From the NCBI GenBank assembly GCA_030605695.1, contig JAUWHX010000021.1, positions 1 to 36,014 of the forward strand: 36,014 nt of DNA, in the 5' to 3' direction. A model generated the notes under the pieces. That model ran no database searches, was not told where the DNA came from, and worked only from the letters and a program-made list of their open reading frames with translations. A program made the translations under genes and the position numbers. Each line of letters begins with the position of its first letter. Within the stretch, counting starts at the first letter, position 1. Source of the stretch: a bacterium. Its GTDB lineage: Bacteria > Hydrothermota > UBA3073 > JACQXS01. This document shows, in pieces, positions 5,086-36,014 of the stretch.

Positions 5086-6392
5086 AGAATATCTTACTCA
5101 TTGGTATTTTTCTATTGCTTTCTTGTGCGAGGGAGAGCAAGGTAAAGATTAGTGTGCTTATAGGGGCAGACCCTGGCGGTGGGTGGAGACAGATTGAACA
5201 AGAGTTTGAAAAGCAGAATCCAGATATTGATGTAAATATTATAGAAGGACCATCTGCAACCGATACTCGTGAGGATATGTATGCGAGCGCTTTTATAGCA
5301 AAGGATGCTACTTACGATGTGGTATATATGGACATTATTTGGGTGCCGAAATTCGCAAAAGCAGGCTGGATAATTCCATTGGATAGGAAATTCGCAAAAG
5401 AGAGAGATGAGAGCAGAGAATCTCATCTACCCGTGGGTTCAGAAGTTCAAGGGGTCAAAAGTTCAAGGGGTCAAGTGGTCGGGGGTTCAGAGAGAGAAAA
5501 AGAGTTCTTGCCCGGAGATATTGCAGGCTCAAAGTATAATGGTAAAATTTATAGAATACCCTTGCAATCAGATGCTGGTATTCTTTACTATCGTAAGGAC
5601 ATTTTGGAGAAAGCAGGATTAGAGCCACCAGAGACATGGGACGAGTTGGTAAATATTGCAAGAAAGCTACAAAATCCACCAGATTTATGGGGATTCACTT
5701 TTCAAGGTGACCAATACGAAGGACTCATTTGCAACTTCTTAGAGCTCGTATGGAGTGCTGGCGGGCAAATTATGAATGCCGAAGGAAATATACAGGTTGA
5801 CTCAAAGGAATGCCTTTCTGCACTTAAGTGGATGGCAAGTTTAGTTGGAGAAATCTCACCTCCAGGTGTTACTACTTATCAAGAAGAGGAGTCAAGACAT
5901 ATTTTCCAAGAGGGCAGATGTATCTTTCACCGCAATTGGCCTTATGTCTGGACATTAGCACAAAAGGAAGAGTCTCCGATTAAAGGGAAAGTTGGAATTA
6001 TCCCGATGGTTCACAAAAAGGGATACGAAAGTGCAGCTACTCAAGGGGGCTGGGGACTTGGGATTTCAAAGTTCTCAAAACACAAAGAAGAGGCATGGAA
6101 ATTTATAGAGTTCGCTACCTCAACTGAAGGGCAAAAAGTACTGCATCTAAAAAACGGATATATCCCTACAAGACACGAGCTCTTTAAAGACCCTGAAATT
6201 CTGAAGAAAAGCCCGCATTATGAACAATTGTATAGGATTCAACTTAAAGCAAGACCCAGACCTATGCATCCAAGATATAGCGAAATATCAGATGCCCTGC
6301 AAGTAGAGATTCATTCTGCTATCACAGGAATCAAGACCCCGGAACAGGCGTTGAAAGATGCACAGAAGAAAATTGAGAGTATTTTGGATTGA
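5082..6392 (+). CDS. Extracellular sugar-binding lipoprotein of ABC transporter
   Basis: Lipobox LLLSC, SBP family 1 motifs (YNGKIYRIPLQSDAGILYYRKDILEKAGLEPPETWDEL); ATGA overlap with endonuclease gene; contains a low-complexity insert. Confidence 0.9.
   Translation: MKNILLIGIFLLLSCARESKVKISVLIGADPGGGWRQIEQEFEKQNPDIDVNIIEGPSATDTREDMYASAFIAKDATYDVVYMDIIWVPKFAKAGWIIPLDRKFAKERDESRESHLPVGSEVQGVKSSRGQVVGGSEREKEFLPGDIAGSKYNGKIYRIPLQSDAGILYYRKDILEKAGLEPPETWDELVNIARKLQNPPDLWGFTFQGDQYEGLICNFLELVWSAGGQIMNAEGNIQVDSKECLSALKWMASLVGEISPPGVTTYQEEESRHIFQEGRCIFHRNWPYVWTLAQKEESPIKGKVGIIPMVHKKGYESAATQGGWGLGISKFSKHKEEAWKFIEFATSTEGQKVLHLKNGYIPTRHELFKDPEILKKSPHYEQLYRIQLKARPRPMHPRYSEISDALQVEIHSAITGIKTPEQALKDAQKKIESILD
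5406..5432. repeat. Palindromic element GATGAGA...TCTCATCTACCC within binding-protein CDS
   Basis: 7-bp arms GATGAGA/TCTCATC plus shared right flank with 212-243. Confidence 0.55.
5437..5492 (+). repeat. 8-bp tandem array (7 units, GTTCAAGG family) inside binding-protein CDS
   Basis: gttcagaa gttcaagg ggtcaaaa gttcaagg ggtcaagt ggtcgggg gttcagag, exact 8-bp register; encodes GSEVQGVKSSRGQVVGGSE. Confidence 0.85.
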
Positions 6393-6402
6393 AGTTAAAA
6401 GA

Positions 6403-6504
6403 ATCAACCACAAAGACCCAAAGGCACAAAGGTCACAAAGTTTTTATTAGGTTCTTTACTTCTTGGTGTTCTTTGTGTCTCCGTGACTTTGTGGTGAATA
6501 AAGA
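6403..6504. repeat. Intergenic inverted-repeat element built from CACAAAG units
   Basis: Left arm AACCACAAAGACCCAAAGGCACAAAGGTCACAAAG; right arm TTTGTGTCTCCGTGACTTTGTGGTG is the approximate reverse complement. Confidence 0.6.
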
Positions 6505-6648
6505 ACTTTAATTTTCGCATTTATTATGATTCCTATTCTTACTTACCACAAAGTAACGAATTTTGATGTCAGTGGAACCTGGGTTACTCCTCTTCAGTTT
6601 GAACAACAGATGCGATATTTATATAAAAGTGGATACACTACTGTAACA

Positions 6649-6888
6649 GTTCAAGAGTTCAGGAGTTCAAGAGTTCAAGGGTTTAAGGGTTCAAGAGGTC
6701 AAGGGTTTAAGGGGTCAAGGGTTCAAGGGTTTAAGGGGTCAAGAGGTCAAGGGTTCAAGAGTTCAAGAGGTCAAGGGGTCAAGGGTTCAAGAGTTCAAGG
6801 GTTCGAGGGTTCAAGGGTTCAAGAGTTCAAGGGGTCAAGGGTTCGAGGGTTCAAATGTTCGAGGGTTCAAGGGTTCAAGGGTTCGAGG
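6649..6888 (+). repeat. 30-unit perfect-register 8-bp array (GTTCAAGR / GGTCAAGR / GTTTAAGG / GTTCGAGG)
   Basis: Counted unit by unit: 30 consecutive 8-mers with no indel; encodes period-8 peptide SRVQGFKG. Confidence 0.95.
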
Positions 6889-7386
6889 GTCAAAACAAGT
6901 TCTCATTACTTTTGATGATGGATATGAGTCTTTCTATCAAAAGGCACTCCCAATCTTACTTAAATACGGATTCAGAGCCTTGATTTTTGTGGTAACCAAA
7001 TATATAGGTAAAGAAAATCTATGGGATGTAAACTTTGGGCACAAGGAACGGCATCTTAATTTAAAAGAGTTGCAGGAGCTTAAGAGATTGGGCTTTGTAA
7101 TTGGCTCTCATACAAGAAGTCATCCGGATCTCACACAAATCCCCATAAACAAAGCAAGAGAAGAGATACTTAACTCAAAGCTTGAGCTTGAAGATAAACT
7201 GGGCGAGGAAGTGCATTTTTTAAGCTATCCCTTTGGCAGATATAACAATGCAATTATTAAACTTTCATTAGAATCAGGATATAAGCTCTCGTTCACATCA
7301 AACCCATTAGTAAATGGAGAAGGAGTCCGAGGAAGAATGGGCGTATATATAATAGATGGGCTAACACATTTCAAAGCTAAGCTTCA

Positions 7387-7414
7387 AGTCCACAGTCCAC
7401 AGTCCACAGTCCAC
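7387..7414 (+). repeat. 7-bp tandem array AGTCCAC x4 inside deacetylase C-half
   Basis: Exact 7-bp register; encodes QVHSPQSTVHSH. Confidence 0.9.
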
Positions 7415-7545
7415 AGTCATTATAGTATGCCTTATCTGATAGAAGCAAGGAAGTGTCAGGTCATAAATTTCTTTTCTCGTGGGACCTGGATGTGGAAAAC
7501 TTTGAATCCCTTTTCAAGACCTTGCATCTAAAAGATAGTGTTTAG

Positions 7546-7645
7546 AAATAAACCACGAATGGCACGAATTTGACGAATAAACACGAATAAACATAAAAAC
7601 ATAAAAATATAAAATTCGTATTTTTCGTGTAATTCGTGTTCTAAT
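7546..7645. repeat. Intergenic inverted-repeat element built from CACGAAT units
   Basis: ACCACGAATGGCACGAATTTGACGAATAAACACGAA ... TTCGTATTTTTCGTGTAATTCGTGTT. Confidence 0.5.
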
Positions 7646-7658
7646 GAGGAGGTGAAAA

Positions 7659-8111
7659 ATGGAGAAAAAATATCATCCATTGGCTGAGTTTTCAAAGATT
7701 GAGGATATAGTGAACCGCACACTTGACCGCACATTATCAGGTGGACTTTTCCCTGATAGATGGAAAAAATTGGTAGGAGAAGAGATAATGCCTGCGTGTG
7801 ACCTCATTGATAGAGGAAATTATCTATTACTTAGAGCTGAAGTTCCCGGACTCAAAAAGGAAAATGTGGAAATCTCTGTAGATGAAACTTCTATCAGCTT
7901 AAAAGGAGAGATAACGCAGAGCAACGAAGAAAAAGGAGAAACTTATTACCGAAGTGAAAGAACTTATGGCTCTTTTTCGCGAGTGGTTGATTTGCCTGCT
8001 GAGGTAAATCCTAATCAAGTAGATGCAAGTATGAGTGATGGTATTCTTGAGGTCAAACTACCCAAAAAGAAAAGCTCCAAGGCAAAAAAGGTAGAAATTA
8101 AAGTCAAGTAG
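7659..8111 (+). CDS. Small heat shock protein, Hsp20/alpha-crystallin family
   Basis: RAEVPGLKKENVEISVDETSISLKGE...FSRVVDLPAEVNPNQVDASMSDGILEVKLPKK; GAGGAGGTG ribosome-binding site. Confidence 0.95.
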   Translation: MEKKYHPLAEFSKIEDIVNRTLDRTLSGGLFPDRWKKLVGEEIMPACDLIDRGNYLLLRAEVPGLKKENVEISVDETSISLKGEITQSNEEKGETYYRSERTYGSFSRVVDLPAEVNPNQVDASMSDGILEVKLPKKKSSKAKKVEIKVK

Positions 8112-8239
8112 GGGATTGAGAGATTAGAAGATTGAAGATTAACCACAGAGAACACAGAGAAAAAAGAAATCATAAAATAAAAAGACTTTTTAACCACAGA
8201 TGAACACGGATACACACAGATTGAAAGAGAAAGAGATTA

Positions 8240-8343
8240 GAAGATTTATCACGAAAGCACGAAATATTGTCCACAGGATCCGTATGGAGAAACACGAAAA
8301 ACTCTTTATAATTAAGTTAGAAGATTGCAGATTCATTGGTTCA
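8240..8343. repeat. Copy 1 of ~103-bp direct repeat flanking the 8570-9919 gene
   Basis: GAAGATTTATCACGAAAGCACGAAATATTGTCCACAGGATCCGTATGGAGAAACACGAAAAACTCTTTATAATTAAGTTAGAAGATTGCAGATTCATTGGTTCA; second copy at 10013-10114, one apparent 2-bp indel. Confidence 0.9.
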
Positions 8344-8506
8344 AAGGTTCAAGAGTTCAAGAGTTCAGGAGTTCAAGGGTTGAAGAGTTGAAGGGTTGAA
8401 GAGTTGAAGGGTTTAAGAGTTGAAGAGTTGAAGAGTTCAGGAGTTCAAGGGTTGAAGAGTTGAAGGGTTGAAGAGTTTAAGGGTTCAAAGGTTTAAAGGT
8501 TCAAGA
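8339..8506 (+). repeat. 21-unit intergenic 8-bp array (GTTCAAGR/GTTGAAGR/GTTTAAGR)
   Basis: Counted in exact 8-bp register. Confidence 0.92.
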
Positions 8507-8569
8507 TTAGTCGCTCGTGGAGTCTGCCCATACGGGTCTTGAGACGACAGACTTTATGAGCGGTTGAGT

Positions 8570-9919
8570 TTACTTCATCAAAATTAGCTTCTTGATTTCC
8601 TTGTAATCACCTACTACAAGCTTCACAAAATAGATGCCGGTTGTCAATTCTTGTGTGTCAAAGCTGACATCATAACATCCAGCACTTTTCTCTTTATTTA
8701 CCAATGTTTTAACTATCCTCCCAGTTATATCGTAAATCTTGAGAGTTGTTAGTTGCTGTTCGAAGAATCCTGTGGAGTTGTTAGTTGACAGTTCTTCTGG
8801 CAATTGATAACTGATAACTGTTCGTTGAGTAAATGGGTTCGGATGAACCTCTAATCCTAAATCTGTAATCTTGAATCTGTAATCCTCCTCCACATTTGAA
8901 CCCTCACATTTATGGCGCTTGTAATATATCTCCTCGTTGTTGCCACCATCCCGCTCATCTGTCCAAGCTATATGAACATCATAATCATAAGAACAATCCC
9001 AACACGCTACAGAAACATAATGAGACTTCCCGACAGCATCAGTTATCCTCTCATCTATTATCCCCCAAGTCTCTCCATCATTGACTGACCGATTGTAATA
9101 TATCTCCTCGTCGTTATCCCGCCAATCATACCAAACTATATGAACTATTGAATCACAAACTGCTATTGAAGGATTATATGAGGCAGCAAGGTCATCAGTT
9201 ATCCTCTCATCTGAATACCAAAGCATCCCATTATCAATTGACCGATTGTAATATATCTCCTCGTTGCCATCACGATGATCATACCAAACTATATGAACTA
9301 TTGAATCACTAACTGCTACCGAAGGATACCCTGAGTAAGCAAGAGCATCAGTTAACCTCTCATCGCCTCCCCAGGTCTCACCATTATCAACTGACCGCTT
9401 GTAATATATCTCATAGTTGCCCCAACGATCATCCTGCCAAACTATATGGACTATTGAATCACTAACTGCTACCGAAGGATACTCTGAGTCAGCAAGGTCA
9501 TTAGTTAGCATCTCATCGTCTCCCCAGGTCTCACCATCATCAACTGACCGCTTGTAATATATCTCCGGGTTACCATCCCGCGCATCCTGCCAAACTATAT
9601 GGACTATTGAATCACAAACTGCTACCGAAGGAAAATGAGAATCCCTTGTAGTTAGCTGTGTATCCGGCTCAAAGCTACTCCCAGAATTGATAGACCTTAT
9701 ATAATAAAGCTCGCCAGGACCAATATTTCTGTGTTCCCATACAATATGCACCATAGTATCCCGCACAGCTATTGTCCACGCATTATTGTAGCCACCATAG
9801 TCAACATGGCTTGGATAAACAGTTAATCTTTTATCTGGATTCTCCCACTGCCCATACAAACTACAAGCTACCAACACTATTCCACAGGATTCTGCGAACA
9901 AAAATCCCCATCTCTTCAT
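8570..9919 (-). CDS. Secreted BNR-like repeat protein with T9SS type A C-terminal sorting domain
   Basis: Repeats of 'SVAVSDSIVHIVWQDDRWGNYEIYYKRSVDNGETWGGDERLTD'; C-terminus LEVHPNPFTQRTVISYQL...LKIYDITGRIVKTL...GIYFVKLVVGDYKEIKKLILMK. Confidence 0.88.
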   Translation of the reverse strand: MKRWGFLFAESCGIVLVACSLYGQWENPDKRLTVYPSHVDYGGYNNAWTIAVRDTMVHIVWEHRNIGPGELYYIRSINSGSSFEPDTQLTTRDSHFPSVAVCDSIVHIVWQDARDGNPEIYYKRSVDDGETWGDDEMLTNDLADSEYPSVAVSDSIVHIVWQDDRWGNYEIYYKRSVDNGETWGGDERLTDALAYSGYPSVAVSDSIVHIVWYDHRDGNEEIYYNRSIDNGMLWYSDERITDDLAASYNPSIAVCDSIVHIVWYDWRDNDEEIYYNRSVNDGETWGIIDERITDAVGKSHYVSVACWDCSYDYDVHIAWTDERDGGNNEEIYYKRHKCEGSNVEEDYRFKITDLGLEVHPNPFTQRTVISYQLPEELSTNNSTGFFEQQLTTLKIYDITGRIVKTLVNKEKSAGCYDVSFDTQELTTGIYFVKLVVGDYKEIKKLILMK

Positions 9920-9934
9920 CTTAATTAAATATAC

Positions 9935-9956
9935 ATCCTATTTCTAAAAAGTCAAG
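9935..9956 (-). promoter_or_regulatory. Putative sigma70-type promoter for 9919 gene (TTGACT ... TATATT)
   Basis: Minus strand: cTTGACTttttagaaataggatgTATATTtaattaag upstream of the ATG; approximate position. Confidence 0.4.
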
Positions 9957-10012
9957 AAAAAACCGCAACCACAGAGAACACAGATACACACAGATTGAAA
10001 GATTCCAGATTT

Positions 10013-10114
10013 GAAGATTTATCACGAAAGCACGAAATATTGTCCACAGGATCCGTATGGAGAAACACGAAAAACTTTATAATTAAGTTAGAAGATTGCA
10101 GATTCATTGGTTCA
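10013..10114. repeat. Copy 2 of the ~103-bp direct repeat
   Basis: See 8240-8343. Confidence 0.9.
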
Positions 10115-10181
10115 GGAGTTTAAGAGTTTAAGAGTTTAAGAGTTTAAGAGTTCAAGAGTTGAAGGGTTGAAGGGTTGAAGA
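10110..10181 (+). repeat. 9-unit 8-bp array (GTTTAAGA/GTTGAAGR) abutting the stop codon of the next gene
   Basis: gttcagga gtttaaga x4 gttcaaga gttgaagg x2 gttgaaga. Confidence 0.9.
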
Positions 10182-10189
10182 GTTGATAT

Positions 10190-10918
10190 TTATTTCTCTA
10201 CTCGGACTCTATAAACCGCAGTAGGCATAGATTTAAGTCCATTTTGAGCAACAGTCCTCATCTGTATCCTAACTGAACGAGGCACAATTTCCCTCAAGGA
10301 CAATTCCTTCCCCTTATTTCTCACCTTTTCTATCGTTACTTCTATAGGAGAAACCCCTATTATAGGCAGAGGAACAATCGCAATATGAGAAGCACTACCT
10401 CTCCATGCTCCTTTAACCCAAATTTGCACGGCACACGGACTATCATATTCATAAGAGAGCCGAACTTTAAACTTAATTTTCCCTCCGGAATATGTTCCAT
10501 ATTGTTCTATGTCAGTCTTCGGTAGAGGAGGTTTGTTCTTTGAAATCGGGGGTTTCCGCACCTCTTCAAATCCACTCCACTTCAATAGCACGTTCATACC
10601 TAAATATGCCTGACCTCCTCCCATTACCCCTGACCTCCTCGGAATTATACCACCTGATGCCTTAACTTCACTACTCATAATCCTTATCCCTTTGGCATAC
10701 TCTTCCCATAAAGCTTTCTCTATCTCTGTTAGATTATTCCACTCCCCCTTAAAATAACTAAAAATCGCCCCAATCTCCTTCTGCTTCCCTGTAGCCGTAT
10801 TCTCCCTCACCTCACTTCTCTTCCTTACATAAGTCCTGCCCCTACGAGTAAAAAATATATTATCCCCTACCCTTCCTCTTATAGAACTTATCAACCCGCC
10901 CAGAATTACCTTACCCAT
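10190..10918 (-). CDS. Hypothetical protein, paralog of 12749-13483
   Basis: 242 aa; shares GGLISSIRGRVGD..FF..RG..YVRKR / WNNLTEIEKALWEEYAKGI / PPLPKTDIEQYGTYSGGKIKFKVRL / IQMRTVAQNG with the other copy; preceded by a ribosome-binding site and TTGACA/TATAAT-like promoter. Confidence 0.85.
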   Translation of the reverse strand: MGKVILGGLISSIRGRVGDNIFFTRRGRTYVRKRSEVRENTATGKQKEIGAIFSYFKGEWNNLTEIEKALWEEYAKGIRIMSSEVKASGGIIPRRSGVMGGGQAYLGMNVLLKWSGFEEVRKPPISKNKPPLPKTDIEQYGTYSGGKIKFKVRLSYEYDSPCAVQIWVKGAWRGSASHIAIVPLPIIGVSPIEVTIEKVRNKGKELSLREIVPRSVRIQMRTVAQNGLKSMPTAVYRVRVEK

Positions 10919-10993
10919 AATTGCACCTCCTATGTATTATAATAATTCTTATCTTCGTTTTGTCAAGTAAAAAGTGTAAAGAAATCGTAAAGA

Positions 10994-11169
10994 GTTTAAG
11001 AGTTTAAGGGTTCAAGAGTTTAAGGGTTTAAGAGTTTAAGAGTTTAAGGGTTTAAGAGTTTAAGGGTTTAAGGGTTTAAGGGTTTGAGGGTTTAAGAGTT
11101 TAAGAGTTTAAGGGTTTAAGGGTTTAAGAGTTTAAGAGTTTAAGGGTTTAAGAGTTCAAAGGTTTAAGG
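10994..11169 (+). repeat. 22-unit intergenic 8-bp array (mostly GTTTAAGR)
   Basis: Exact 8-bp register counted. Confidence 0.93.
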
Positions 11170-11200
11170 TAGTTAAGATAATAAAAATGGGAGGTGTGAG

Positions 11201-12586
11201 ATGAGGAAATCGTTAATGTTTTTAGGTATCTTGTATCCTCTTATATGCTCTGGAGATTGGTGGATTACGACGGTGGATAGTCATTCAGTAGGTGGGAGTT
11301 CAATTGCAATTGATTCATCGGGAATACCCCATATAGCTTACACCCGATGCGATGCAGGAGGATTTTTTAAGTATGTATCTGGGAATCCCATAGATTCAAG
11401 CTGGACATTAGAATTTACACATGATTCGAGTAGCTTCCCAAATCTAAAACTTGATTCAAAGGGATTGCCTCATATTATAAGTGAAAACGGATGGTATATA
11501 TGGAAGGATACTAATGATATATGGAGTAAAGAGAAGGTACGGTATGAGATTGGCTCAGGCTGGTATTATCATGGACACTCACTTGTTTTAGATACCAATG
11601 ATTATCCCCATATTCTGGGGGTATATAGGAATTTTGATTTACCCCCAGATTATGCTTTTCTTTTTCATTGGTATAAAGACAGCATAGGGTGGCATACCGA
11701 TACAGTGGATACTGTGAGTAACGGTATAGATAATATCTCTATCGTAATAGATAATGAAAATGTAATTCATATAGCGTATCCTTCTCTTCCTGGTAACTAT
11801 CTTTGTTATGCTAAAAAGATTGATGGAGTCTGGGATAAAGAGGTAGTAGAGTTATATCCTGCGGGTTATCGACCATGGATAGCTCTTGATGCTTATGGTC
11901 GTCCTTGTATTACCTGGAAGACAAACGGAGGCGGATTGAAGTTTGCGAGAAAGAACGATAAAGGATGGGAAATAGAAATGATAGATACGGCAGGGTATTA
12001 CGTGCATAACCCGGTCCTGTGCATTGGCAAAGACAATAATCCTCGTATTGCTTATCTTTTTGCAAGAACTCATAGTAATGGGGACTTGAAATATGCCTGG
12101 TTTGATGGTGCTTCATGGAATACTACAACAATTGATACAAATGTTTTCAGCCCCACGAAATCAAAACCTAAAATCCACTATACTTTCATGGGTATGGAAA
12201 TAGATAAGGATGGAATTTCTCATATATGTTATGATTACCAGAAGGGTGCTTTTGAAAAATATGCCAAGGGACATGGTCCGCATATAGGAGTTGAAGAGAG
12301 TGAAGAGTTTAGAGTGAAGAGTTTAGAGTTGAAAGTTTATCCTAATCCATTTACTACAGGGGTTAGGGTTAAGGGGTTAGGGGTTAGTGAAGGACAAAAA
12401 GTTAATCTAAAGATTTATGATATGATGGGAAGGTTGGTGGAAGAGACAAATGTAGGATTAGAAGATTGTAAGATAGGGGAAAGTTTACCGGCAGGTATTT
12501 ACTTTGTGAAGGTTCAAGAGTTTAAGAGTTCAAAGGTTCAAAGGTTCAAGGTAGTTAAGATAATAAAAATGGGAAGGGTGAGATGA
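11201..12586 (+). CDS. Secreted beta-propeller-like protein with T9SS type A sorting domain
   Basis: Signal peptide MRKSLMFLGILYPLICSG; repeated 'G.P.I.Y....G' blades; C-terminus LKVYPNPFTTGVRVKGLGVSEGQKVNLKIYDMMGRLVEE...LPAGIYFVKVQEFKSSKVQRFKVVKIIKMGRVR. Confidence 0.82.
   Translation: MRKSLMFLGILYPLICSGDWWITTVDSHSVGGSSIAIDSSGIPHIAYTRCDAGGFFKYVSGNPIDSSWTLEFTHDSSSFPNLKLDSKGLPHIISENGWYIWKDTNDIWSKEKVRYEIGSGWYYHGHSLVLDTNDYPHILGVYRNFDLPPDYAFLFHWYKDSIGWHTDTVDTVSNGIDNISIVIDNENVIHIAYPSLPGNYLCYAKKIDGVWDKEVVELYPAGYRPWIALDAYGRPCITWKTNGGGLKFARKNDKGWEIEMIDTAGYYVHNPVLCIGKDNNPRIAYLFARTHSNGDLKYAWFDGASWNTTTIDTNVFSPTKSKPKIHYTFMGMEIDKDGISHICYDYQKGAFEKYAKGHGPHIGVEESEEFRVKSLELKVYPNPFTTGVRVKGLGVSEGQKVNLKIYDMMGRLVEETNVGLEDCKIGESLPAGIYFVKVQEFKSSKVQRFKVVKIIKMGRVR
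12361..12391 (+). repeat. GGTTAGGGTTAAGGGGTTAGGGGTTAGTGAA element inside T9SS domain (copy 1)
   Basis: 29/31 identical to 27784-27814, same position relative to the PNPF motif in another gene. Confidence 0.85.
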
Positions 12587-12596
12587 GGCGCTGAGA

Positions 12597-12740
12597 GTTT
12601 AAGGGTTTAAGGGTTTAAGGGTTTAGGGGTTCAAAGGTTTAAAGGTTTGAGGGTTTAAGGGTTTAAGAGTTTAAGAGTTTAAGGGTTTAAGAGTTTAAGG
12701 GTTTAAGAGTTTAAGAGTTTAAGAGTTTAAGGGTTTAAGA
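12597..12740 (+). repeat. 18-unit intergenic 8-bp array (mostly GTTTAAGR)
   Basis: Exact 8-bp register counted. Confidence 0.93.
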
Positions 12741-12748
12741 GTTATATT

Positions 12749-13483
12749 TCAATCTTTTTTCACCTCTATTCTATAAATTTGACTGGACTGAGAGTATCTG
12801 CCATTATTAGCAATAGTCCGCATCTGTATAAGGACTTTGAAATCTCCAATATCTTTTAAATCCTTTTCTATTAGCTCGTTATTCTCTTTTATCCTAAGCT
12901 TATCTATCACTACCCTGGTTTTTGAAGTAGATAAAGGTGCAAGAGTTCTAACATAAGGGTAGCTTCGCTTGCCTATTCTTCTTATCCAAATTTGAGCAAC
13001 ACAATCGGTTATATACTGGCTGGGCAACCAGACATCGAACTCCAGCTTATTTTTATATACACCGAGGTCCATCAAATCAGTCTCTGGTAAATGTGGTTTA
13101 GGTAAATTTGCCAGAGGAGGTTTTTCCATAGGGTCAAACCCACATAATATCAATAACGAATTCACGGATACATAAGCAGTAATACCGGTTCTCGCTCCCG
13201 TAACTGGAATAAGCCCTTGTCTCTTCTTAAACTTTACCTTAAACTTCTTGGCATACTCTTCCCATAAAGCCCAATGAGTAAAACTCAGCTTGCTCCACTC
13301 ATTCAAGAGCTTAGCAACAGTCTGCTGCACCCTTTTCTGTCTCCAAGTGTTAGGTTGTTTTTCTTTTCTCACTCTCTTTTTCACCATAGGAACACCCCTT
13401 GAATTAAAAAAAGTGTAATCACCTGCCGAGCCCGATATCCCAGAAACCAAACCAGAATTTTTATACTTAGCCATTTTTACCAC
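12749..13483 (-). CDS. Hypothetical protein, paralog of 10190-10918
   Basis: 244 aa; MAKYKNSGLVSGISGSAGDYTFFNSRGVPMVKKR...FTHWALWEEYAKKF...PPLANLPKPHLPETDLMDLGVYKNKLEFDVWL...VLIQMRTIANNG. Confidence 0.85.
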   Translation of the reverse strand: MVKMAKYKNSGLVSGISGSAGDYTFFNSRGVPMVKKRVRKEKQPNTWRQKRVQQTVAKLLNEWSKLSFTHWALWEEYAKKFKVKFKKRQGLIPVTGARTGITAYVSVNSLLILCGFDPMEKPPLANLPKPHLPETDLMDLGVYKNKLEFDVWLPSQYITDCVAQIWIRRIGKRSYPYVRTLAPLSTSKTRVVIDKLRIKENNELIEKDLKDIGDFKVLIQMRTIANNGRYSQSSQIYRIEVKKD

Positions 13484-14353: not shown

Positions 14354-14480
14354 AAATATAAAAATTCTAAATTATAAGCACTAAATCCTAAACAATATCT
14401 AAATTCAAAATCCAAAACATATGTCTTGAATTTTGGTCATTTGAATTTGTTTAGAGTTTAGGATTTCGGATTTAGAATTT
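14354..14480. repeat. Large imperfect inverted repeat (AAATTCTAAAT...TAAATCCTAAAC / GTTTAGAGTTTAGGATTTCGGATTTAGAATTT)
   Basis: Outer and inner arms complementary by eye. Confidence 0.65.
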
Positions 14481-14481
14481 T

Positions 14482-15135
14482 TCATTTATAAGGTTTCCAA
14501 GTGTACGGACGTTCAAAAATTCCTGAATAACATTTAAGTTCCTTAACTTTTTTTGTAATACGCGCTGGATTGCCGACAACAACTGTTCTTGCAGGAACAT
14601 CTTTTGTTACACAGGCGCCGGCTCCAACAAGAGCGTGTTCTCCGATAGTAACTCCCGGAAGAATTATACATCCTCCTCCAATTTTAGCAAACTTTTTTAC
14701 TTTGGCGCCACCCAGACATTCACGATATTTTTGGCAAGGCGGATGAGGGTCGTCAAGGAATACAGTTCCGGGACCTATAAAGACATATTCCTCAATTTCC
14801 ACAAGTTCAAGGAAGCAAGATGAATGTATTCTTGTCCCAAAACCAATCTTATTTTCAACCTCAATAACCGTATTAGTGCCTATGCTCACATTATCGCCAA
14901 TTACATTGTTTTCCCTAATGGTAACTCCTTGTCCTGTTTGGAAATTATTGCCTATTTTGTTGTTAGCATATATGGCAGTGAATGGGCGGATAATTGCATT
15001 CTCTCCGATTTCGGTTGTCGGTTTTTGGTTTTCGGTTTTCGGAGGGAAGCCAATGACAACGAAATCATATATTGTGCTATTTTTGCCAATTTTTACTCCA
15101 GGGTATATCTTTACCGATTCTCCAACCTTAACCAT
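14482..15135 (-). CDS. Left-handed beta-helix acyl/acetyltransferase (hexapeptide repeats, WbbJ-like)
   Basis: GVKIGKNSTIYDFVVIG...IGENAIIRPFTAIYANNKIGNNFQTGQGVTIRENNVIGDNVSIG...GGGCIILPGVTIGEHALVGAGACVTKDVPARTVVVGNPA. Confidence 0.92.
   Translation of the reverse strand: MVKVGESVKIYPGVKIGKNSTIYDFVVIGFPPKTENQKPTTEIGENAIIRPFTAIYANNKIGNNFQTGQGVTIRENNVIGDNVSIGTNTVIEVENKIGFGTRIHSSCFLELVEIEEYVFIGPGTVFLDDPHPPCQKYRECLGGAKVKKFAKIGGGCIILPGVTIGEHALVGAGACVTKDVPARTVVVGNPARITKKVKELKCYSGIFERPYTWKPYK
15011..15045 (-). repeat. 7-bp tandem array (CCGAAAA family, 5 units) inside acetyltransferase CDS
   Basis: + strand tcggttg tcggttt ttggttt tcggttt tcggagg in exact register; encodes PPKTENQKPTTEI. Confidence 0.85.
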
Positions 15136-26587: not shown

Positions 26588-28042
26588 ATGATTTTTCTGA
26601 CTTTTATTATCTTAAACAACTGGTCGCCTGATACTCTTATTAGTGAAGGTTATACTTCCTATCCCAACCAAAATAATATAGTTTGTGATGCAAGTGGAGA
26701 CATGCACATTTCATGGTTTAAATGGAATGGTGGGTCTTCATATTCTATATACTATCAACATTACACAGGGACTCAGTGGATAGGTTATGAAGACTTATCT
26801 ACCGGAATAACAGGAGGATTCAATTATTTACCATCTATAACAAATTGGAGTTCTGCATCTGGAGATTTGTTCCTTTTCGCATTATGGCAAACCAATTGGG
26901 TAAGTCATCGGGGCGAAGGATATTTTAGAATAGCTCTGAGGAAGTTTTCCTCAACTGGAGAATGGGAAGATACTATAGCATTTGTTTCATCTGATTCAAT
27001 GGATGCTTTTGCTCCCTGTGCAGTATGTGATTACAAAGGAGTAGTTCATATCGTATGGGAACAAGGATATGAAATTTGTTACAGGAATCTCACAGTCTTT
27101 GGCTTTTCAGATGAGATTTTTTATCTTTCAAACAGCGGGGTATATACAGCTTATCCTGCAATAGCAACTTTTGAAGAGAAATTATTCGTTGTTTGGGAAG
27201 ATTTAAGGGATGGAAATTTCGAAATATATTTTAAAGAATTTGATGGAAATAAGTGGAGTGATGATAAGAGAGTTACAAATTCAACTTCTGCTTCTCTTTT
27301 CCCAAGTTTATGTGTTGATTCAACTGGTATAGTTCATATCGTATGGCAAGAAGATGCAATCGGAGGATATAAAATCTTTTACACTAATTATACTCAAGGA
27401 AATTTTGATACTCCCAGCGTAGCTGTAGAATCTCCAAGCGAAGCAATGAGATCATCTATCGTAAGTGATGGGGAGAAAATTCATCTTGTATGGTCAGACT
27501 CAAGGGATGGAGACTGGGAAATCTATTACAAAGTTAAAAGTCAAAAGTTAAAAGTGAAAAGTGAATGGGAAGCTCCTGCAAGATTGACATATAGTTCAGG
27601 AGTTTCGGCAGACCCAAGTATCAGTGCAGACAAAGATGGAAATCTTTATCTCTTGTTTTGGGATACTCGTGATGGAAAGGCAAAAATATATTTCAAGAAG
27701 AAAGAACTCAAGAACACAAAAGCACAAGAGCACAAAAGTGTAAATTTAGTCATCTCGCCAAATCCGTTCACTCAAACTACAGTGATTAGGGTTCAGGGGT
27801 TAGGGGTTAGTGAAAAGCAAGCTGACCCTACGATTCACGATTCACGATTCACGATTCACGATATTGCTGGCAGACTCATCCGGGAATTTCCGATCCACGA
27901 TGCAGGGTTTGCGATTCACGAAGTAGTTTGGGATGGCAAGGATGCTAACGGAGTAGAGTTAAATTCTGGAATTTACTTTTTGAAAATTGAAAATCAAGAG
28001 TTGAAGAAGAAAATAGTTGAAAAAATCATTTTGATAAGATGA
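26588..28042 (+). CDS. Secreted BNR-like repeat protein with T9SS type A sorting domain
   Basis: 'GVVHIVWEQGYEI', 'LFVVWEDLRDGNFEIYFKEF', 'IHLVWSDSRDGDWEIYYKV' repeats; ISPNPFTQTTV...DIAGRLIREF...GIYFLKIENQELKKKIVEKIILIR. Confidence 0.87.
   Translation: MIFLTFIILNNWSPDTLISEGYTSYPNQNNIVCDASGDMHISWFKWNGGSSYSIYYQHYTGTQWIGYEDLSTGITGGFNYLPSITNWSSASGDLFLFALWQTNWVSHRGEGYFRIALRKFSSTGEWEDTIAFVSSDSMDAFAPCAVCDYKGVVHIVWEQGYEICYRNLTVFGFSDEIFYLSNSGVYTAYPAIATFEEKLFVVWEDLRDGNFEIYFKEFDGNKWSDDKRVTNSTSASLFPSLCVDSTGIVHIVWQEDAIGGYKIFYTNYTQGNFDTPSVAVESPSEAMRSSIVSDGEKIHLVWSDSRDGDWEIYYKVKSQKLKVKSEWEAPARLTYSSGVSADPSISADKDGNLYLLFWDTRDGKAKIYFKKKELKNTKAQEHKSVNLVISPNPFTQTTVIRVQGLGVSEKQADPTIHDSRFTIHDIAGRLIREFPIHDAGFAIHEVVWDGKDANGVELNSGIYFLKIENQELKKKIVEKIILIR
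27532..27566 (+). repeat. 7-bp array AGTTAAA/AGTCAAA/AGTGAAA (5 units) in CDS
   Basis: Exact 7-bp register; encodes KVKSQKLKVKSE. Confidence 0.88.
27710..27741 (+). repeat. 8-bp array AAGARCAC-type (4 units) in CDS
   Basis: aagaacac aaaagcac aagagcac aaaagtgt; encodes KNTKAQEHKSV. Confidence 0.75.
27784..27814 (+). repeat. GATTAGGGTTCAGGGGTTAGGGGTTAGTGAA element (copy 2)
   Basis: 29/31 identical to 12361-12391. Confidence 0.85.
27830..27862 (+). repeat. 7-bp array ACGATTC x4 in T9SS domain
   Basis: Exact register; encodes TIHDSRFTIHD next to the conserved IAGRLIREF. Confidence 0.9.
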
Positions 28043-31000
28043 GAAAAATTTCTGGATTAGCAATTTGTTGGTTTGCAAGTTTGCTGATAACAGGGAAAGT
28101 AGCAGATTCTTTTAGTTCTGGGAGATTGTGGAAAACCTCGCCTGATGGAGAGACCTCCTGGTATCAATTATCAAAGTCAGAAAATTTCTCCTACAAAGCT
28201 CCTCCTCAACTTATCTCTTCTAACCCAAGTGGTTGTGTAGTTGAAATTCCTTCAGGAGATGAGGAAGTTTTTATTCTTGTAGGTATTCCTCCTCGTGGAC
28301 AAGTTAAATGTAATCAAGGAACCATTGACCAAATTGCGTGGATAAGAAGACATCGGATTGCAAGAATTTCAGTCAAACCCTTCAAGAACAAAAAAAGAGA
28401 GATACACATAAATTGGGAAACAACTAAAGGAAATTTGGGATTACCTGAAAATACACCATTTGAGCATATATTAAGAAAACATCTTGTAAATTATGAAGTC
28501 TCAAAAAATTGGGTAAGACCAAGAAAAGTCAAAAGTCAAAAGTCAAAAGTCAAAAGTTGTAAAATTATTGTGGAACAAGAAAGAATATATCGTGTAAGTT
28601 ATGAAGATATTTGTGACATAATCCCAGAGAATATAGACCCCAGAACTATCAAGCTAACTCATTGTGGATTTGAAGTTCCTATAGTTATAAAGGGGGAAGA
28701 AGATGGAAATTTTAATTCAGATGATTGGTTTGAGTTCTATGCCAAGCGAAGAGAAGGTGAATTTACATACTTGAATTTATATTCTGATACAAATGTCTAT
28801 TGGCTTGAATTTGGAGGCCCACCCGGCGCAAGGTTAGCAAAAGAGAGCTGTGAGCCTTATCAAGCATCGGTTGTTTCTTCTTACCCATCTAAAATTCACT
28901 TTGAGCAAGACAGTATTTATAGACTTTTCGGTGATTACCCGGACACCATTGACCCTTGGTTCTGGGCTGGATTTGACTATGAGAAAAGTTTCTACTTAGA
29001 AACACCAAATCCAGTTACATCTGCCGATTGTAGTTTAAAAATTGTTCTTCGGACATCAAATGGGCCAGGAAAATGTCAGATAAAATTGAACAATAACTTC
29101 ATAGGAGAAATAGATTTTCCAGATGCTCAAGGATTCCCCATTACATTTGAAACATCCTTTTCACAAAATATTCTTAGAGATTCAACTGAGCTTACTCTTA
29201 CGCCAATAGCAGGAAATATTTATCTCAATTTTGTCGAATTAAGTTACTCAAGACTATATAAAGCTCACAACGGCTATATAAAATTTAAACCATCTGTTCC
29301 CGGAACCCACAAATTTAAGATAACTGGATTTGTGAACCCCGAAATCAAAGTTTGGAAAATCGGCACCTCATTTATTGTTGATGGGAAAAACGAGTATGAC
29401 GATAGTTCGCAAACTTACACTTACACTTTTCAAAACACAGCCGATATCTATACTGAGTATATAGCACGGGATTTTGAACTCAAGCATATACGAATTGAGA
29501 CTACTTCCTCAGACCTTAGGTCTCCAGCCAATCGGGCAGATTATATAATCATTACTAATTCGGAGTTCTATAATTCCGTCTCAAGTTATGCAAATTGGAA
29601 AGAGAGGCAAGGATTTACTTGCAAAGTAGTAAATCTTCAGGATATTTATGATGAATTCAATTTCGGACTTGTTTCTCCAAATGCTATTCACAATTTTCTA
29701 AAATATGCTTTTGAAACTTGGAGTCTCCCTCCTGTTTATGTATTATTACTTGGAGATGCCAGTTACGACCATCGCAACATTCTTGGCTTCGGCAATAATG
29801 ATATAGTTCCTTCTAAAACTTTGTTTGATGAAAACTTGATTCTTATCCCCTGTGATAATTTATATGCTTGTATTAGCGGTGATGACCCAATACCAGATAT
29901 CTTCTTGGCAAGATTACCTGCAAAAAATGTTCAAGAATTTAATATTATGTTTGGAAAACTCAAGCAATATGAAGAAGCAAAACTATGGGGAGAATGGAGA
30001 AAAACCTTTTTAATAGGAATCGGAGAAGAAGATTTAACTGATGAAATGGAAAAGCTCATAAAGAATATCCCCCAAAGTTATGAAGTTAAAAGAGCCTACT
30101 ATCCCAAAGTTTCCCAGCCTGAGCTCGTAAATGCCATTAACAAGGGTGCACTTTTTTTATCTTATATGGGACACAGTGGACAAAGAGAATGGGCTGGAGG
30201 ATTACTATGGAAAGATGCTCTCCCCGGACTTATGAATATAGGAAGACTTCCATTTGTAGCAGTGCTTGGATGTTACAATGGAGTTTTTGACCATCCCAGA
30301 GAAGATTTTATGGGTGAACTATTTGTAAAATCACCCGGCGCAGCAATTGCTTACTGGGGACCAGCAGGAGGCGTAGGGATAGGAGCTAAAGGTTTAATAA
30401 AAGGGCCCCTTGATGCTTTGTGCACTGAAGCAAAAAATACTTCTGGAATCCTTGCTCTCCACGGAATAATTGAATGCTTTGAAAGTACAAGACACCCCAA
30501 AAATGTATTGCAACAAGTACTTCTGGGAGACCCAACTACCCCTATTTACTCTCCTCAACAAAATATAGAGCTAACTCTAATACCTCCTTCTTTATTGCCC
30601 GGCGATAGTTGCACAATATTTGGCAAATTTCCTTCTAGTATTTCTGGAGAAGCAATCCTCACAATCTATACCAATGACACAACTCAATTCAAGAAAATCA
30701 GAACTTCTGTGACAGGAGGAAAGTTTGAAACAAGTTTTATATTACCAGACACCGTTGCTGAAGGAAATGGGAAAATCATAGCTTATGCTTGGAGCGATAC
30801 AACTGACTTCACTGGAATAACCCACTTTTCTATTAGTGTTCCTAATATTTACCCAATCCTCATTATACCGGAGAATCCTATAAGTAAAGACTCAGTTCTC
30901 ATAAAGGTAAAAGCTTTTGACCTCGCAGGAATCAACTGGGTAAGATGCCTCTGGGGAATAAATCCTCCTCCCTGGAACATAATCCCTATGCTTCCAGATA

Positions 31001-32367: not shown

Positions 32368-33380
32368 TAGTTACAAGTTACAAGTTGCAAGTCACAAGTC
32401 AGAGGTCTTTGGTTTTATGTTTACTTGCTACTTACTACTTACTACTCTCTACTTCTCTAAATGCCACTTGGTATAGTGCTGAACTCCTATCATTAAATGC
32501 AGGTCCAAGAGCTCACTCAATGGGATGCGCATATACTGCTATTGCTGATGATCCTTTTTCTCCTTGGTGGAATCCTGCCGGCCTTATTAAAAATCACGGA
32601 CCCTACATAGCAGGCATGCAAACGCGTCCATTTGGACTGGAAAACTTTAGTTTTATCAGTGCAGGCTACCCTCATAAAAAATTTGCATTCTCTATACTTG
32701 CCGCTTCTCTCAAAATTGACGAAATCCAGAGACTCCCAGATACCCTTGTCCCAGAGCCCATCGGTTTCTTTAAAGACCAGGAACTCGCTATCTTCCTTTC
32801 TTCCGCATATAAAATAAGGGAAAGTACTGAGGTCGGTATAAATATTAAACACCTGCGATATAATCTGGATGACACGCAGGCAAAAGGTTTTGGAGTTGAC
32901 ATCGGGATTAGTTCTAAACTCAATAATATTCCAATTGGACTCGTTATTAAGGATATCGGAGGAACTCGACTGAAATGGGATACCGGTCAAAAAGATTGCA
33001 GACAAACAAATTCTATTCTGGGAGCTGCTTACTCCTTTAATAACCCCTCTATTGGAAATTACTACCTTCCAGGAGACTTTTTGCTTTCAGCAGACATCGG
33101 ATACGAATACAAACCCTTTTGTGGAATCGGAGTTGAATACTCTTTTATGGATATGTTCTTCTTGCGAACTGGTTTCTCTGGAAAATCAAACAGCTTGAAC
33201 ACAGGAATAGGAATAAAAGTTCGTAATCTCTCTATTGATTACTCATTCTCTCCACATGACTTAGGTGTCTCTCATCAAATATCTGCTTCTATCACTTTCT
33301 TTAAAACGACTTCCCAACCTGAAAAGCGACATCCTCCAAAAACCCGCAAGCGTCGGAAATCGACTCAGCGACCGAAATAG
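32364..33380 (+). CDS. porV: PorV/PorQ-family outer membrane protein
   Basis: LSLNAGPRAHSMGCAYTAIADDPFSPWWNPAGLIKN...FISAGYPHKKFAFSILAASLK; follows the porU-like gene with ATGA overlap. Confidence 0.78.
   Translation: MIVTSYKLQVTSQRSLVLCLLATYYLLLSTSLNATWYSAELLSLNAGPRAHSMGCAYTAIADDPFSPWWNPAGLIKNHGPYIAGMQTRPFGLENFSFISAGYPHKKFAFSILAASLKIDEIQRLPDTLVPEPIGFFKDQELAIFLSSAYKIRESTEVGINIKHLRYNLDDTQAKGFGVDIGISSKLNNIPIGLVIKDIGGTRLKWDTGQKDCRQTNSILGAAYSFNNPSIGNYYLPGDFLLSADIGYEYKPFCGIGVEYSFMDMFFLRTGFSGKSNSLNTGIGIKVRNLSIDYSFSPHDLGVSHQISASITFFKTTSQPEKRHPPKTRKRRKSTQRPK
32369..32403 (+). repeat. 7-bp array AGTTACA (5 units) in porV signal-peptide n-region
   Basis: agttaca agttaca agttgca agtcaca agtcaga. Confidence 0.9.
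32422..32456 (+). repeat. 7-bp array TACTTAC (5 units) in porV signal-peptide hydrophobic core
   Basis: tacttgc tacttac tacttac tactctc tacttct; encodes LATYYLLLSTS. Confidence 0.9.
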
Positions 33381-34461
33381 GTCCTTCCATTAAACTAAAA
33401 ACCGAACTCAACCCTTCCTTGTAAAAACCGTCTATTCCTTCACCTATACTACCCGTTATCCCAATTACAGGAATCTTATGAGTTTTGCCAAATTGCATTA
33501 CCTCCCAAACCACCTTGCCATATCTTGTGTTTTTGTTTATCTCGCCCTCACCTGTGATTATAACATCTGCATCAGATACTCTCTCCTCAAAATCAAGCAA
33601 CTCCATTATAAATTTTGCTCCTCCAACAACTTCTGCCCCGATAACCGAAAGCCCAAACGGAACTCCACCAGATGCTCCCATCCATGGTTTTTTACTTAAA
33701 TCAACCATATCAACGACTTCTGAAAAATGAGTCAATCCGTTCTCAAGAATTTCTATCTCTTTATGAGAAGCACCCTTTTGACCAGCATATACCTTAGCCG
33801 CACCATCCGGACCAACCAAAGGATTCAAAACATCTGCAAGTACTATAATTTCTGGTATGGGCGAGGTTACCTCGCCCATACAAATTTCTTTTATCTTATT
33901 AAGAGTAATTCCAACTGGGATAAAATTATTACCAGATTCATCTAAAAACTTTACTCCCAGTGCCGCAAGAATTCCAGTTCCACCATCGCAAGTCGCACTA
34001 CCGCCTACACCAAGAATTATTTTATTAATGCCTTTTTCAACTATTGTTTTTATGAGTTCCCCAACTCCATATGTCGTTGTATTCATTGGGTTTCTCAAAT
34101 GAACCATTGAACCTTTAACCCCTTTAACCTTTGAACTCTTAAACCTTTCTTTTGGCAAAAGAGAAAGCCCTGCCACCTTCGCAAGCTCTATCACTACGGT
34201 GTCTTCCATAATTAAATATTCTGCTTCTATCTTATCCCAAAGAGGACCGGCAATTTTTCTTTTATAGCTCTCACAGTCTTGCGCTCTTGTGCACTTGTGC
34301 TCTCTTATTACCTCAAGAGTCCCATCTCCACCATCAGCTAAAGGAATCTTTTCAATCTTTGCTATAGGCAAAACTTTCTCTAATCCCTTCTCAATACAAT
34401 TCGCCACTTCCAGACTGCTCATACAATCCTTAAAGGAATTAGGAGCAACTACAATCTTCAT
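33301..34461 (-). CDS. Glycerate kinase (GarK/GlxK family)
   Basis: MKIVVAPNSFKDCMSSLEVANCIEKGL...IPLADGGDGTLEVI...IILGVGGSATCDGGTGILAALG...VGPDGAAKVYAGQKGA...DVIITGEGEINKNTRYGKVVW. Confidence 0.95.
   Translation of the reverse strand: MKIVVAPNSFKDCMSSLEVANCIEKGLEKVLPIAKIEKIPLADGGDGTLEVIREHKCTRAQDCESYKRKIAGPLWDKIEAEYLIMEDTVVIELAKVAGLSLLPKERFKSSKVKGVKGSMVHLRNPMNTTTYGVGELIKTIVEKGINKIILGVGGSATCDGGTGILAALGVKFLDESGNNFIPVGITLNKIKEICMGEVTSPIPEIIVLADVLNPLVGPDGAAKVYAGQKGASHKEIEILENGLTHFSEVVDMVDLSKKPWMGASGGVPFGLSVIGAEVVGGAKFIMELLDFEERVSDADVIITGEGEINKNTRYGKVVWEVMQFGKTHKIPVIGITGSIGEGIDGFYKEGLSSVFSLMEGPISVAESISDACGFLEDVAFQVGKSF
33855..33881. repeat. Perfect palindrome GTATGGGCGAGG-tta-CCTCGCCCATAC inside glycerate kinase
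   Basis: 12-bp perfect arms, total 27 bp; encodes MGEVTSP between 'NKIKEIC' and 'PEIIVLADVLNPL'. Confidence 0.9.
34097..34144 (-). repeat. 8-bp array (6 units, GTTTAAGA/GTTCAAAG family) inside glycerate kinase
   Basis: Minus strand gtttaaga gttcaaag gttaaagg ggttaaag gttcaatg gttcattt; 48 bp; encodes FKSSKVKGVKGSMVH. Confidence 0.88.
34274..34305 (-). repeat. 8-bp array (4 units, AGAGCACA family) inside glycerate kinase
   Basis: Minus strand agagcaca agtgcaca agagcgca agactg; encodes EHKCTRAQD. Confidence 0.75.
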
Positions 34462-36014
34462 ATCATTCCAGAGTATCGCAAAAGTCTGTGCTTCAGAGAC
34501 TCTTGTAAATAAAGACTTCTCATTGTCTCAATCTCCAGTGTATTTCCGTCTGTTGTGATAAGAATAGCTCCTTCCTTATCTGTTCTCAAAACTTGTGCAC
34601 CCAACTCACTATATTTCTTGATTACCCCCGGAGCTGGCTCTCCCCAGCGATTTCTACCACACGATATTATCGCAACATCCGGGTTTATACTTGAAACCCT
34701 TTCACCGACAAAACAAGATTTATTCCCATGTTTAGGAACTGATAACACTGTTACCTTTTGATTGTAGGAGCTTGATTTATCAAGCCCAATGGGTTTTACA
34801 TCACCCGGAAATCTAAAGGAAATATCTCCATACTCAAGCACAAGCCCTACATTATCAGCATCAATAAACTTACAAGGAATATCCTTATATTCTAATAATT
34901 CAAGTAATCTTAACCACGATTTAGAAGAATAAGCCACAGCAGGACAAACAAATTCCTTCACCTTGAAATTATCAATGATATATCTGATTCCTCCAATTCT
35001 ATAAATCTTTGGGTTTATGGCTACAACGAGGTCAAGAGTTTTTACTCCCTTTGCTCTCAAAAACGGAGTAACTATCTTCTCTCCGGCATCAAACCAGGTT
35101 CCCCACTTCCGTGGTCCGCCATCAATTAAGATTTTACGACCTGAGGTTGCACCTCCCCGAGGCATCTCAATAAACACACAATCCCCGTGCCCAACATCAA
35201 GGTAAGTTACTTTAAGCTTCGGATGGCTAATTTTATATACACCTGACCATAGGAAAATATTTGCTAATATCAGCACTCCGTATATAAGTACTTTTCTTGC
35301 TGGGTTAGAAGTCCGAAGATTCACTCCACTCAATATGAAAAGATAAGAGAGTCCAATCAAGAGTATGGATGGCTTCCCGACCCAGAAATGACCATAAAGG
35401 ACTTTGTTAAACCATTCTATGATTGTGAGTGTGAATGTAGTCGCTCCCCAGTTCACACAAGCAAATATATTGCCAAGAAACTCCCATGGCAAAAGATTAA
35501 ATATGCTCATCGCGAAAGTTAATGCAATACACACTCCGGTAAGTGGAATCACGAATACATTCGCAATAATCGATATGATAGGCACTTTCCAAAAGTAATA
35601 AGCAATGAGAGGTGCAAGCCCAATCTGGACGCAGAAGGAAACTACAAAAATCTTGAGAAAATATAGGACTATGCGATTTCTTATATTTATTCTGCCAAAT
35701 AGCAAATTGTATATCTTGGGATATAAATAAACAATTGATAGGACAGCACCAAACGAAAGCTGAAAACTTACATCAAAAAGCGCTTGTGGATTAAGGAATA
35801 AAATGAAGAGGACTGCAAAGGAAATTACATTGAGCGCATCAGTATCTCTTTCTGCGGTAATGGCAATCATTCCGAGTATAGTCATTATTGTAGCCCTCAC
35901 TACCGGCATCCTTAAATCTATCATAAACGCATAGAGTATAAGGAAAATAGATGTGAGAATTTGCTTGGGAATCAATGGAATCCTAAATACACTGAGTATT
36001 ATGAATATTATAAA
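34458..36014 (-). CDS. comEC: ComEC/Rec2-family DNA internalisation protein, N-terminus beyond window edge
   Basis: VVRATIMTILGMIAITAERDTDALNVISFAVLFILFLNPQALFDVSFQLSFGAVLSIV...TYLDVGHGDCVFIEMP...LIDGG; frame stays open to 36014; ATGA overlap with glycerate kinase. Confidence 0.9.
   Translation of the reverse strand, partial: FIIFIILSVFRIPLIPKQILTSIFLILYAFMIDLRMPVVRATIMTILGMIAITAERDTDALNVISFAVLFILFLNPQALFDVSFQLSFGAVLSIVYLYPKIYNLLFGRINIRNRIVLYFLKIFVVSFCVQIGLAPLIAYYFWKVPIISIIANVFVIPLTGVCIALTFAMSIFNLLPWEFLGNIFACVNWGATTFTLTIIEWFNKVLYGHFWVGKPSILLIGLSYLFILSGVNLRTSNPARKVLIYGVLILANIFLWSGVYKISHPKLKVTYLDVGHGDCVFIEMPRGGATSGRKILIDGGPRKWGTWFDAGEKIVTPFLRAKGVKTLDLVVAINPKIYRIGGIRYIIDNFKVKEFVCPAVAYSSKSWLRLLELLEYKDIPCKFIDADNVGLVLEYGDISFRFPGDVKPIGLDKSSSYNQKVTVLSVPKHGNKSCFVGERVSSINPDVAIISCGRNRWGEPAPGVIKKYSELGAQVLRTDKEGAILITTDGNTLEIETMRSLYLQESLKHRLLRYSGMI
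34764..34787. repeat. GTAGGAGCTTGAT-tt-ATCAAGCCC palindrome inside comEC
   Basis: Arms GAGCTTGAT/ATCAAGCCC with one mismatch; encodes IGLDKSSSYN. Confidence 0.75.

Follow-up and report, generated by a model that had tools for sequence, protein, structure and literature searches.

Heptanucleotide tandem repeats reside within protein-coding genes and change their words at fixed sites in a candidate division WOR-3 genome

Rickettsia palindromic elements are defined palindromic elements that lie in frame within many unrelated genes. The tandem repeats described here likewise reside in frame in many unrelated genes, but the heptamers among them have neither a palindrome nor common ends and mostly bring no net insertion. 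They were found in a stretch of 36,014 nucleotides, hereafter the window, which is the entire contig C8 (JAUWHX010000021.1) of G000, a 1.98 Mb metagenome-assembled genome (MAG) of candidate division WOR-3 whose close relatives carry the names candidate division WOR-3 or Stahlbacteria. The original prediction, made from the window alone, was that several families of 7-bp and 8-bp tandem repeats occupy coding genes with matched orientation and phase, as a distinct system.

Heptamers are the commonest long simple sequence repeats (LSSRs) in many prokaryotes, an excess that was ascribed to slippage (Mrazek 2007, as relayed in PMC4692102 and PMC4679880). The cases related in PMC4679880 are mainly intergenic, with multiples of three favoured in coding sequence (CDS). 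As these sources portray them, heptanucleotide LSSRs resemble the repeats of G000 in the prevalence of heptamers over other periods, the many words and the patchy taxonomic distribution, but the heptamers of G000 are equally dense in CDS and outside, and their words turn over at fixed sites. The claim of a distinct system is thus sustained only in part: the heptamer excess itself is already known, and the residence in genes and the word turnover at fixed sites are new. A literature search found no paper joining 'candidate division WOR-3' with 'tandem repeat'.

Three further systems can be compared. The TAACTGA repeats of Beggiatoaceae, cyanobacteria and Bacteroidetes (PMC4679880) are also heptamer direct repeats at many genome places, a minority of them within open reading frames (ORFs), but they consist of a single word, for the most part placed ahead of start codons. 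TAACTGA was found neither as a dimer nor as a trimer in 1.48 Mb of G000 (the window plus 1.44 Mb from other contigs), the sample to which all genome-scale counts below refer. The GGGAATC and GGGGA(C/T)T heptamers of Xanthomonas and Nostoc (PMC4692102) and the cyanobacterial short tandemly repeated repetitive sequences vary in length and sequence at positions common to relatives; those of Xanthomonas and Nostoc are intergenic and G-rich, whereas the arrays of G000 are mostly in ORFs, and exact dimers of these words were absent from the G000 sequence examined. The constant-size variable-sequence repeats of Bacillus (PMC8161180) share a fixed size with free sequence and include a 20–21-nt class, but that class matches a separate set of arrays in G000. 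The tandem unit of that set is fixed at 21 bp (or 42 bp), while the sequences are unrelated from array to array; the set occupies positions 2-175 of the window and about 80 other places; the 21-bp class comprises 83 arrays covering 8 kb, and has no internal heptamer structure.

Periods 7 and 8 are in marked excess. With a strict array defined as at least 12 consecutive lag matches, merged, G000 contains 114 arrays of period 7, 65 of period 14, 34 of period 8 and 31 of period 16, and one each of periods 6 and 9, while a third-order Markov control sequence gave none at periods 6 to 9. Tandem heptamers therefore occur above chance, as in heptanucleotide LSSRs. At a looser threshold the counts are 153 (period 7), 89 (14), 44 (8), 23 (16), 24 (9) and 1 (6). 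A lack of excess of 7 and 8 over 6 and 9 had been named beforehand as what would refute the original prediction; with 114 and 34 against 1 and 1, the excess stands. Every array named in the window was recovered by Tandem Repeats Finder, those at 27694-27735 (77%) and 34278-34300 being weak. The observed repeats are thus real and their excess is genome-wide, although two other parts of the prediction, the phase through a deacetylase array and the treatment of 7 and 8 as one phenomenon, did not survive, as described below. A single unit size combines with many unrelated sequences, both in the 153 heptamer arrays, which fall into 72 classes, and in the 83 arrays of 21 bp. The word AACTCNC is nearly confined, among 147 genomes of the phylum, to the genus of G000 together with G005 and G008.

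The two periods differ in where they reside. Period-7 loci occur at 75 per Mb deep in ORFs of at least 150 aa and at 70 per Mb between ORFs. Period-8 loci occur at 3.5 per Mb deep in ORFs against 163 per Mb between them, an approximately 46-fold depletion (Fisher p=1e-12). The greedy ORF caller missed porV and both porV tracts were counted as intergenic, so the figure for gene residence of period 7 is conservative. Repeats that cross the reading frame are expected to be purged from genes, and the octamers of G000 are, but the heptamers are not; the exclusion of non-triplet units from genes, which is typical of heptanucleotide LSSRs though not strictly defining, is not seen for them. Of the two, the octamers behave as expected and the undepleted heptamers are the anomaly. 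As octamers have nearly gone from deep within genes and heptamers have not, the two do not form a single invading system. The octamer arrays look like ordinary slippage products: they are long, variable and intergenic, and those in genes either preserve the frame as inserts or are disruptive. About even confidence attaches to the reading that the WOR-3 lineage carries two repeat populations, heptamer tracts that lie in genes as well as between them and largely conserve length, and slippage-type octamer arrays. Comparison of 7 with 8 in one genome, and of repeat-rich with repeat-poor species in one genus, provides a natural experiment that bears on the old question of the predominance of heptamers among the non-triplet repeats of bacteria.

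Heptamers also reside in genes in a second WOR-3 MAG, G001 (RS_17_16; 4 of 4), and in Stahlbacteria L194 (3 of 3). In Poribacteria, one was in CDS and five were intergenic, and seven IMG/VR contigs had 3 in CDS and 23 intergenic. Two contigs from viral collections, L273 (IMG/VR) and L275, carry several heptamer arrays, nearly all intergenic, the opposite of the WOR-3 pattern.

The arrays truly occupy protein-coding genes, as predicted, and the hosts include essential enzymes, as borne out by Pfam domains and by comparison with orthologs and PDB homologs. Array-bearing ORFs with Pfam support include adenylate kinase, MurD, phosphomannomutase (PMM), SelA, CoaE, UbiA, SDR and glycosyltransferases, and 97 of 168 array-bearing ORFs had an ortholog match in the limited sequence available from relatives. 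Tract length in CDS peaks at 30–35 bp, or 4–5 units (113 of 189), and the peak holds outside the type IX secretion system (T9SS) proteins. The tracts lie in domain linkers, surface loops and signal peptides. Hydrophobic tracts are enriched at N-termini: 14 of the 27 N-terminal tracts are hydrophobic, compared with 13 of the 165 internal ones (p=2e-7). At N-termini they make up signal peptides, in some cases with a lipobox-like LSGC or LGC after them.

Orientation relative to the host gene is matched genome-wide for the recurrent heptamer words, in agreement with the original prediction: AACTCAC is on one strand in 8 of 8 cases, AACTCTC in 7 of 7, AAAATGC in 7 of 7 and ACGATTC in 8 of 9. For most words the reverse strand has a stop in all reading frames. 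AAAATGC is stop-free on both strands, yet all seven of its occurrences have the polar orientation. Whichever frame is used, an array of heptamers on a given strand encodes the same cyclic heptapeptide, so the gene is affected only by strand and net length. Strand matching is explained by survival after filtering for stop codons and polarity, and targeting is therefore not required.

Heptamer tracts generally occupy, rather than extend, their sites. In T9SS tails of G000, the segment from EE to PNP spans 10–16 residues in the 23 cases that have an array and 11–16 in the 23 that lack one. Relative to solved homologs, the net length at heptamer tracts is +1 to +3 in CoaE, +3 in PMM, +1 in an acetyltransferase, about -10 in a glycosyltransferase and +7 in a UXS-like SDR protein. 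That arrays arrive as ready-made insertions is contradicted by a T9SS linker length independent of the array and by the little net insertion at heptamer sites in most orthologs and PDB homologs. Clean insertion as a general route of array gain was rejected, being true of the glycerate kinase octamer but not general for heptamers.

The words, however, change between relatives. G002, a repeat-poor congener of G000 (73% in a comparison of PorU-like proteins), has 5 loosely called arrays of period 7 and 12 of period 14 in 485 kb (forty stretches plus the PorU contig), and no strict period-7 array in 473 kb. At G002 sites orthologous to G000 tracts, identity at lag 7 is 0.509 against a background of 0.279, and lags 5, 6, 8, 9 and 10 are at background. 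These sites are decayed arrays, some with a different word at identical length. Words swapped at constant length between G000 and G002 are GACTCAC and an AGAAGYG type in a glycosyltransferase, AACTCTC and AACTCAC in CoaE, and AGTCCAC and an ATCAACA-like word in the deacetylase. Among lag-7 pairs in which both copies had changed, 40 of 59 changed identically; we estimate a fair null at about one third to 0.45, because the G000 tracts were selected for periodicity. In G001, whose PorU-like protein is 95% identical to that of the window, comparison over the shared stretch (94% identical) showed no difference in the tracts of porU and 27530, whereas those of porV were equal in length, with the second changed in step. 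The linker word at 27786 is similar to the one in the T9SS gene at 12358, which points to possible gene conversion between T9SS paralogs. Repeat-coded residues in WOR-3 proteins (KVKSQKSKVKS, NSQLTTHNSQL, DSRFTIHDSR) hold little homology information.

Lag-7 match runs in CDS form a discrete class, with 36 runs of 9–10 and 127 of at least 11, against 7 and 0 in the Markov sequence. The vocabulary is restricted, with 72 distinct word classes in the 153 arrays where 135 (minimum 123) would be expected from the stop-free 7-mers of the genome, and the flanks of tracts with the same word are unrelated (identity 0.284, vs 0.273 between different words). Together with the length peak, these features favour a model in which tracts are written or copied, rather than growing gradually in place, and argue against an element with defined ends. 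The most likely explanation is a DNA-level, largely length-conserving process that writes or copies heptamer tracts, of which selection retains the harmless ones. Tracts of 4–5 units from a limited vocabulary lie in permissive protein segments and between genes, mostly on residues that the protein already had. Conservation of length and the survival filters are shown by the data, whereas the molecular step is inferred. It may be that strands misalign, or the template is switched, with an offset of 7 nt during replication or repair, which would make changes mostly length-neutral or multiples of three, and purifying selection would retain only outcomes that are stop-free, compatible in polarity and neutral for frame. 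Words would later drift and be homogenised one by one, while period, place and length persist. New protein sequence would then have a source other than point mutation or insertion. A stronger version, in which a dedicated or unusually active process overwrites coding stretches with ~33-bp heptamer tracts of shared vocabulary, largely keeping length and frame, and thereby continually renews the linkers and signal peptides across hundreds of proteins, is decidedly doubtful.

Several observations weigh against a length-conserving writing process. Genes here are ORF calls, not transcripts. The heptamer site at 7387 has 9 to 11 aa more than the shorter loop of G003 and G006, the +7 aa (21 bp) in the SDR protein holds against both G002 and human UXS1, and a ferredoxin-like protein also has +7 aa at its heptamer site. 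Near a T9SS linker, the window and G001 differ by a -7/+7 indel pair that keeps the frame, though a gap-free alignment with substitutions is also possible. The restricted vocabulary speaks against purely local seeding, and no donor event was caught. A Y-family polymerase (PF00817) had no match in six WOR-3 genomes (G000, G001, G002, G003, G005 and G008), although 11 of 14 controls matched; such a polymerase was accordingly rejected as the slippage agent. Loss of MutS was also rejected as a cause, since MutS_V was found in repeat-rich G000 and repeat-poor G002 alike.

Ordinary slippage of long simple repeats, with polymerase geometry favouring heptamers and only 21-bp multiples or compensated indels surviving in genes, is possible but unlikely. 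The known heptamer excess was ascribed to it in the sources cited above, and the two +21-bp differences and the -7/+7 pair count in its favour. However, 7 and 8 both cross the frame, so slippage with selection predicts depletion in CDS at both periods, and only octamers are depleted. The heptamer arrays have no higher-order 21-bp structure (0.782 at lag 21, 0.802 at lag 7 and 0.825 at lag 14), CDS tracts keep their length in the stretch shared with G001, and the array vocabulary differs from that of local 7-mers. The tolerance of genes for so many frame-crossing heptamers is not explained by ordinary repeat slippage. A 21-bp growth unit (3 x 7, two helical turns) was rejected, because identity at lag 21 does not exceed that at lags 7 and 14, and the separate 21-bp arrays lack heptamers within their units.

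It is very improbable that selection acts on the encoded heptapeptides as linkers or signal peptides, with the DNA period as a by-product. Polar tracts do lie in linkers and hydrophobic ones in signal peptides, and 21 T9SS tracts begin exactly 14 aa ahead of the PNP motif, but the peptides at the same site are wholly different between relatives and paralogs, heptamers are equally dense between genes, and such selection has no need of a 7-nt DNA period.

Phase variation, with changes in copy number switching surface genes on and off, is equally improbable. Two octamer arrays count in its favour: the one near 10110 differs in length in G001, and the 30-copy deacetylase array leaves two open halves in different frames, like an OFF state. 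In the deacetylase the matched phase first predicted is lost: where the upstream ORF (6526-6915) leaves the array it is in a different frame from QVLITFDDGYE, and the Pfam deacetylase domain is found only in the other frame. The G002 ortholog has a single intact frame with a heptamer-type tract in the loop of the array (LTHDSQPTTRN). The split could be a pseudogene, an OFF-state switch or an assembly miscount, mis-assembly being a risk for an array of 242 bp in a MAG. The heptamer tracts have 4–5 copies, equal in length in G001, and are present in housekeeping enzymes, contrary to phase variation. Least probable of all is a mobile element inserting in frame like Rickettsia palindromic elements, for although recurrent words in unrelated genes and in-frame residence would suit it, the tracts have no common ends, flanks or fixed sequence, and mostly no net insertion.

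Table 1. Repeat arrays and tracts of the window, with their setting and comparison to relatives or homologs.
Feature	Position	Strand	Setting and comparison
Octamer/16-mer array (GGGGTCAAAAGTTCAA)	5435..5480	+	ABC-transporter substrate-binding protein 5082-6392, in frame; SBP_bac_1 domain spans site
30-copy octamer array GTTCAAGG, 242 bp	6649..6890	+	Polysaccharide deacetylase; gene halves in different frames
AGTCCAC heptamer tract	7387..7418	+	Deacetylase; equal length in G002 with different decayed word (ATCAACA-like)
Octamer array GTTCAAGR/GTTGAAGR	8339..8506	+	Intergenic; Tandem Repeats Finder
Octamer array GAGTTTAA	10116..10184	+	Intergenic; ~270 bp extra at this boundary in G001
Octamer array AAGAGTTT	10990..11168	+	Intergenic; stops in both orientations
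14-mer/heptamer tract	12297..12339	+	Linker ahead of T9SS tail, protein 11201-12586
AGGGGTT heptamer tract (RVKGLGVSE)	12358..12387	+	T9SS tail of protein 11201-12586
Octamer array GTTCAAGA	12512..12550	+	3' end of T9SS gene 11201-12586
Octamer array GTTTAAGG	12597..12743	+	Intergenic; Tandem Repeats Finder
CCGAAAA-type heptamer tract	15009..15042	-	Hexapeptide acetyltransferase; +1 aa vs QdtC (3fs8)
AAAGTTA/AAAAGTC heptamer tract	27530..27562	+	T9SS protein 26588-28042; identical in G001
Degenerate octamer stretch (CAAGAACA), weak, 77%	27694..27735	+	T9SS protein 26588-28042, ahead of tail; same length in G001 and G002
TTAGGGG heptamer linker	27786..27810	+	T9SS protein 26588-28042; TTCRTTA heptamer-type linker in G001; word common to 12358
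ACGATTC heptamer tract	27830..27862	+	T9SS protein 26588-28042; present in G001; decayed, AATTTAC-like in G002
AAAAGTC heptamer tract	28524..28557	+	PorU-like C25 peptidase; identical in G001
AGTTACA heptamer tract	32369..32399	+	PorV-family N-terminus, polar start (VTSYKLQVTSQ)
TACTTAC heptamer tract, pyrimidine-rich	32422..32454	+	PorV-family, hydrophobic signal-peptide-like stretch (LLATYYLLLSTS); changed in step in G001
Octamer array	34100..34148	-	Glycerate kinase; clean 16-aa (48-bp) insert vs G002, 3cwc and 1to6
Weak octamer (CTTGTGCA, 2.9 copies)	34278..34300	-	Glycerate kinase; 15 bp longer than G002

The window has further features. G001 lacks the greater part of the glycerate kinase gene together with the adjoining upstream segment (33378-34799 in the window), although both flanks are syntenic. 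Two 94% identical intergenic segments, 8202-8343 and 9976-10114, flank gene 8570-9919, and an octamer array starts at or beside the end of each. For each of two similar-looking proteins, of 242 aa (10190-10918) and 244 aa (12749-13483), the 3' end of the gene is immediately next to an octamer array; the former had no Pfam match and neither had an NCBIfam match. The T9SS-tail protein 8570-9919 contains 153-bp (51-aa) repeats at 9037-9632, with a weak match to a beta-propeller repeat. A hairpin-forming element with CACAAAGG arms (6395-6505) occurs at 10 dispersed places in G000 and at many more in G001. A near-perfect inverted repeat of ~127 bp (14360-14486), a hairpin like those of miniature inverted-repeat transposable elements, has a 95% identical copy in L070 and copies on both strands in G001.

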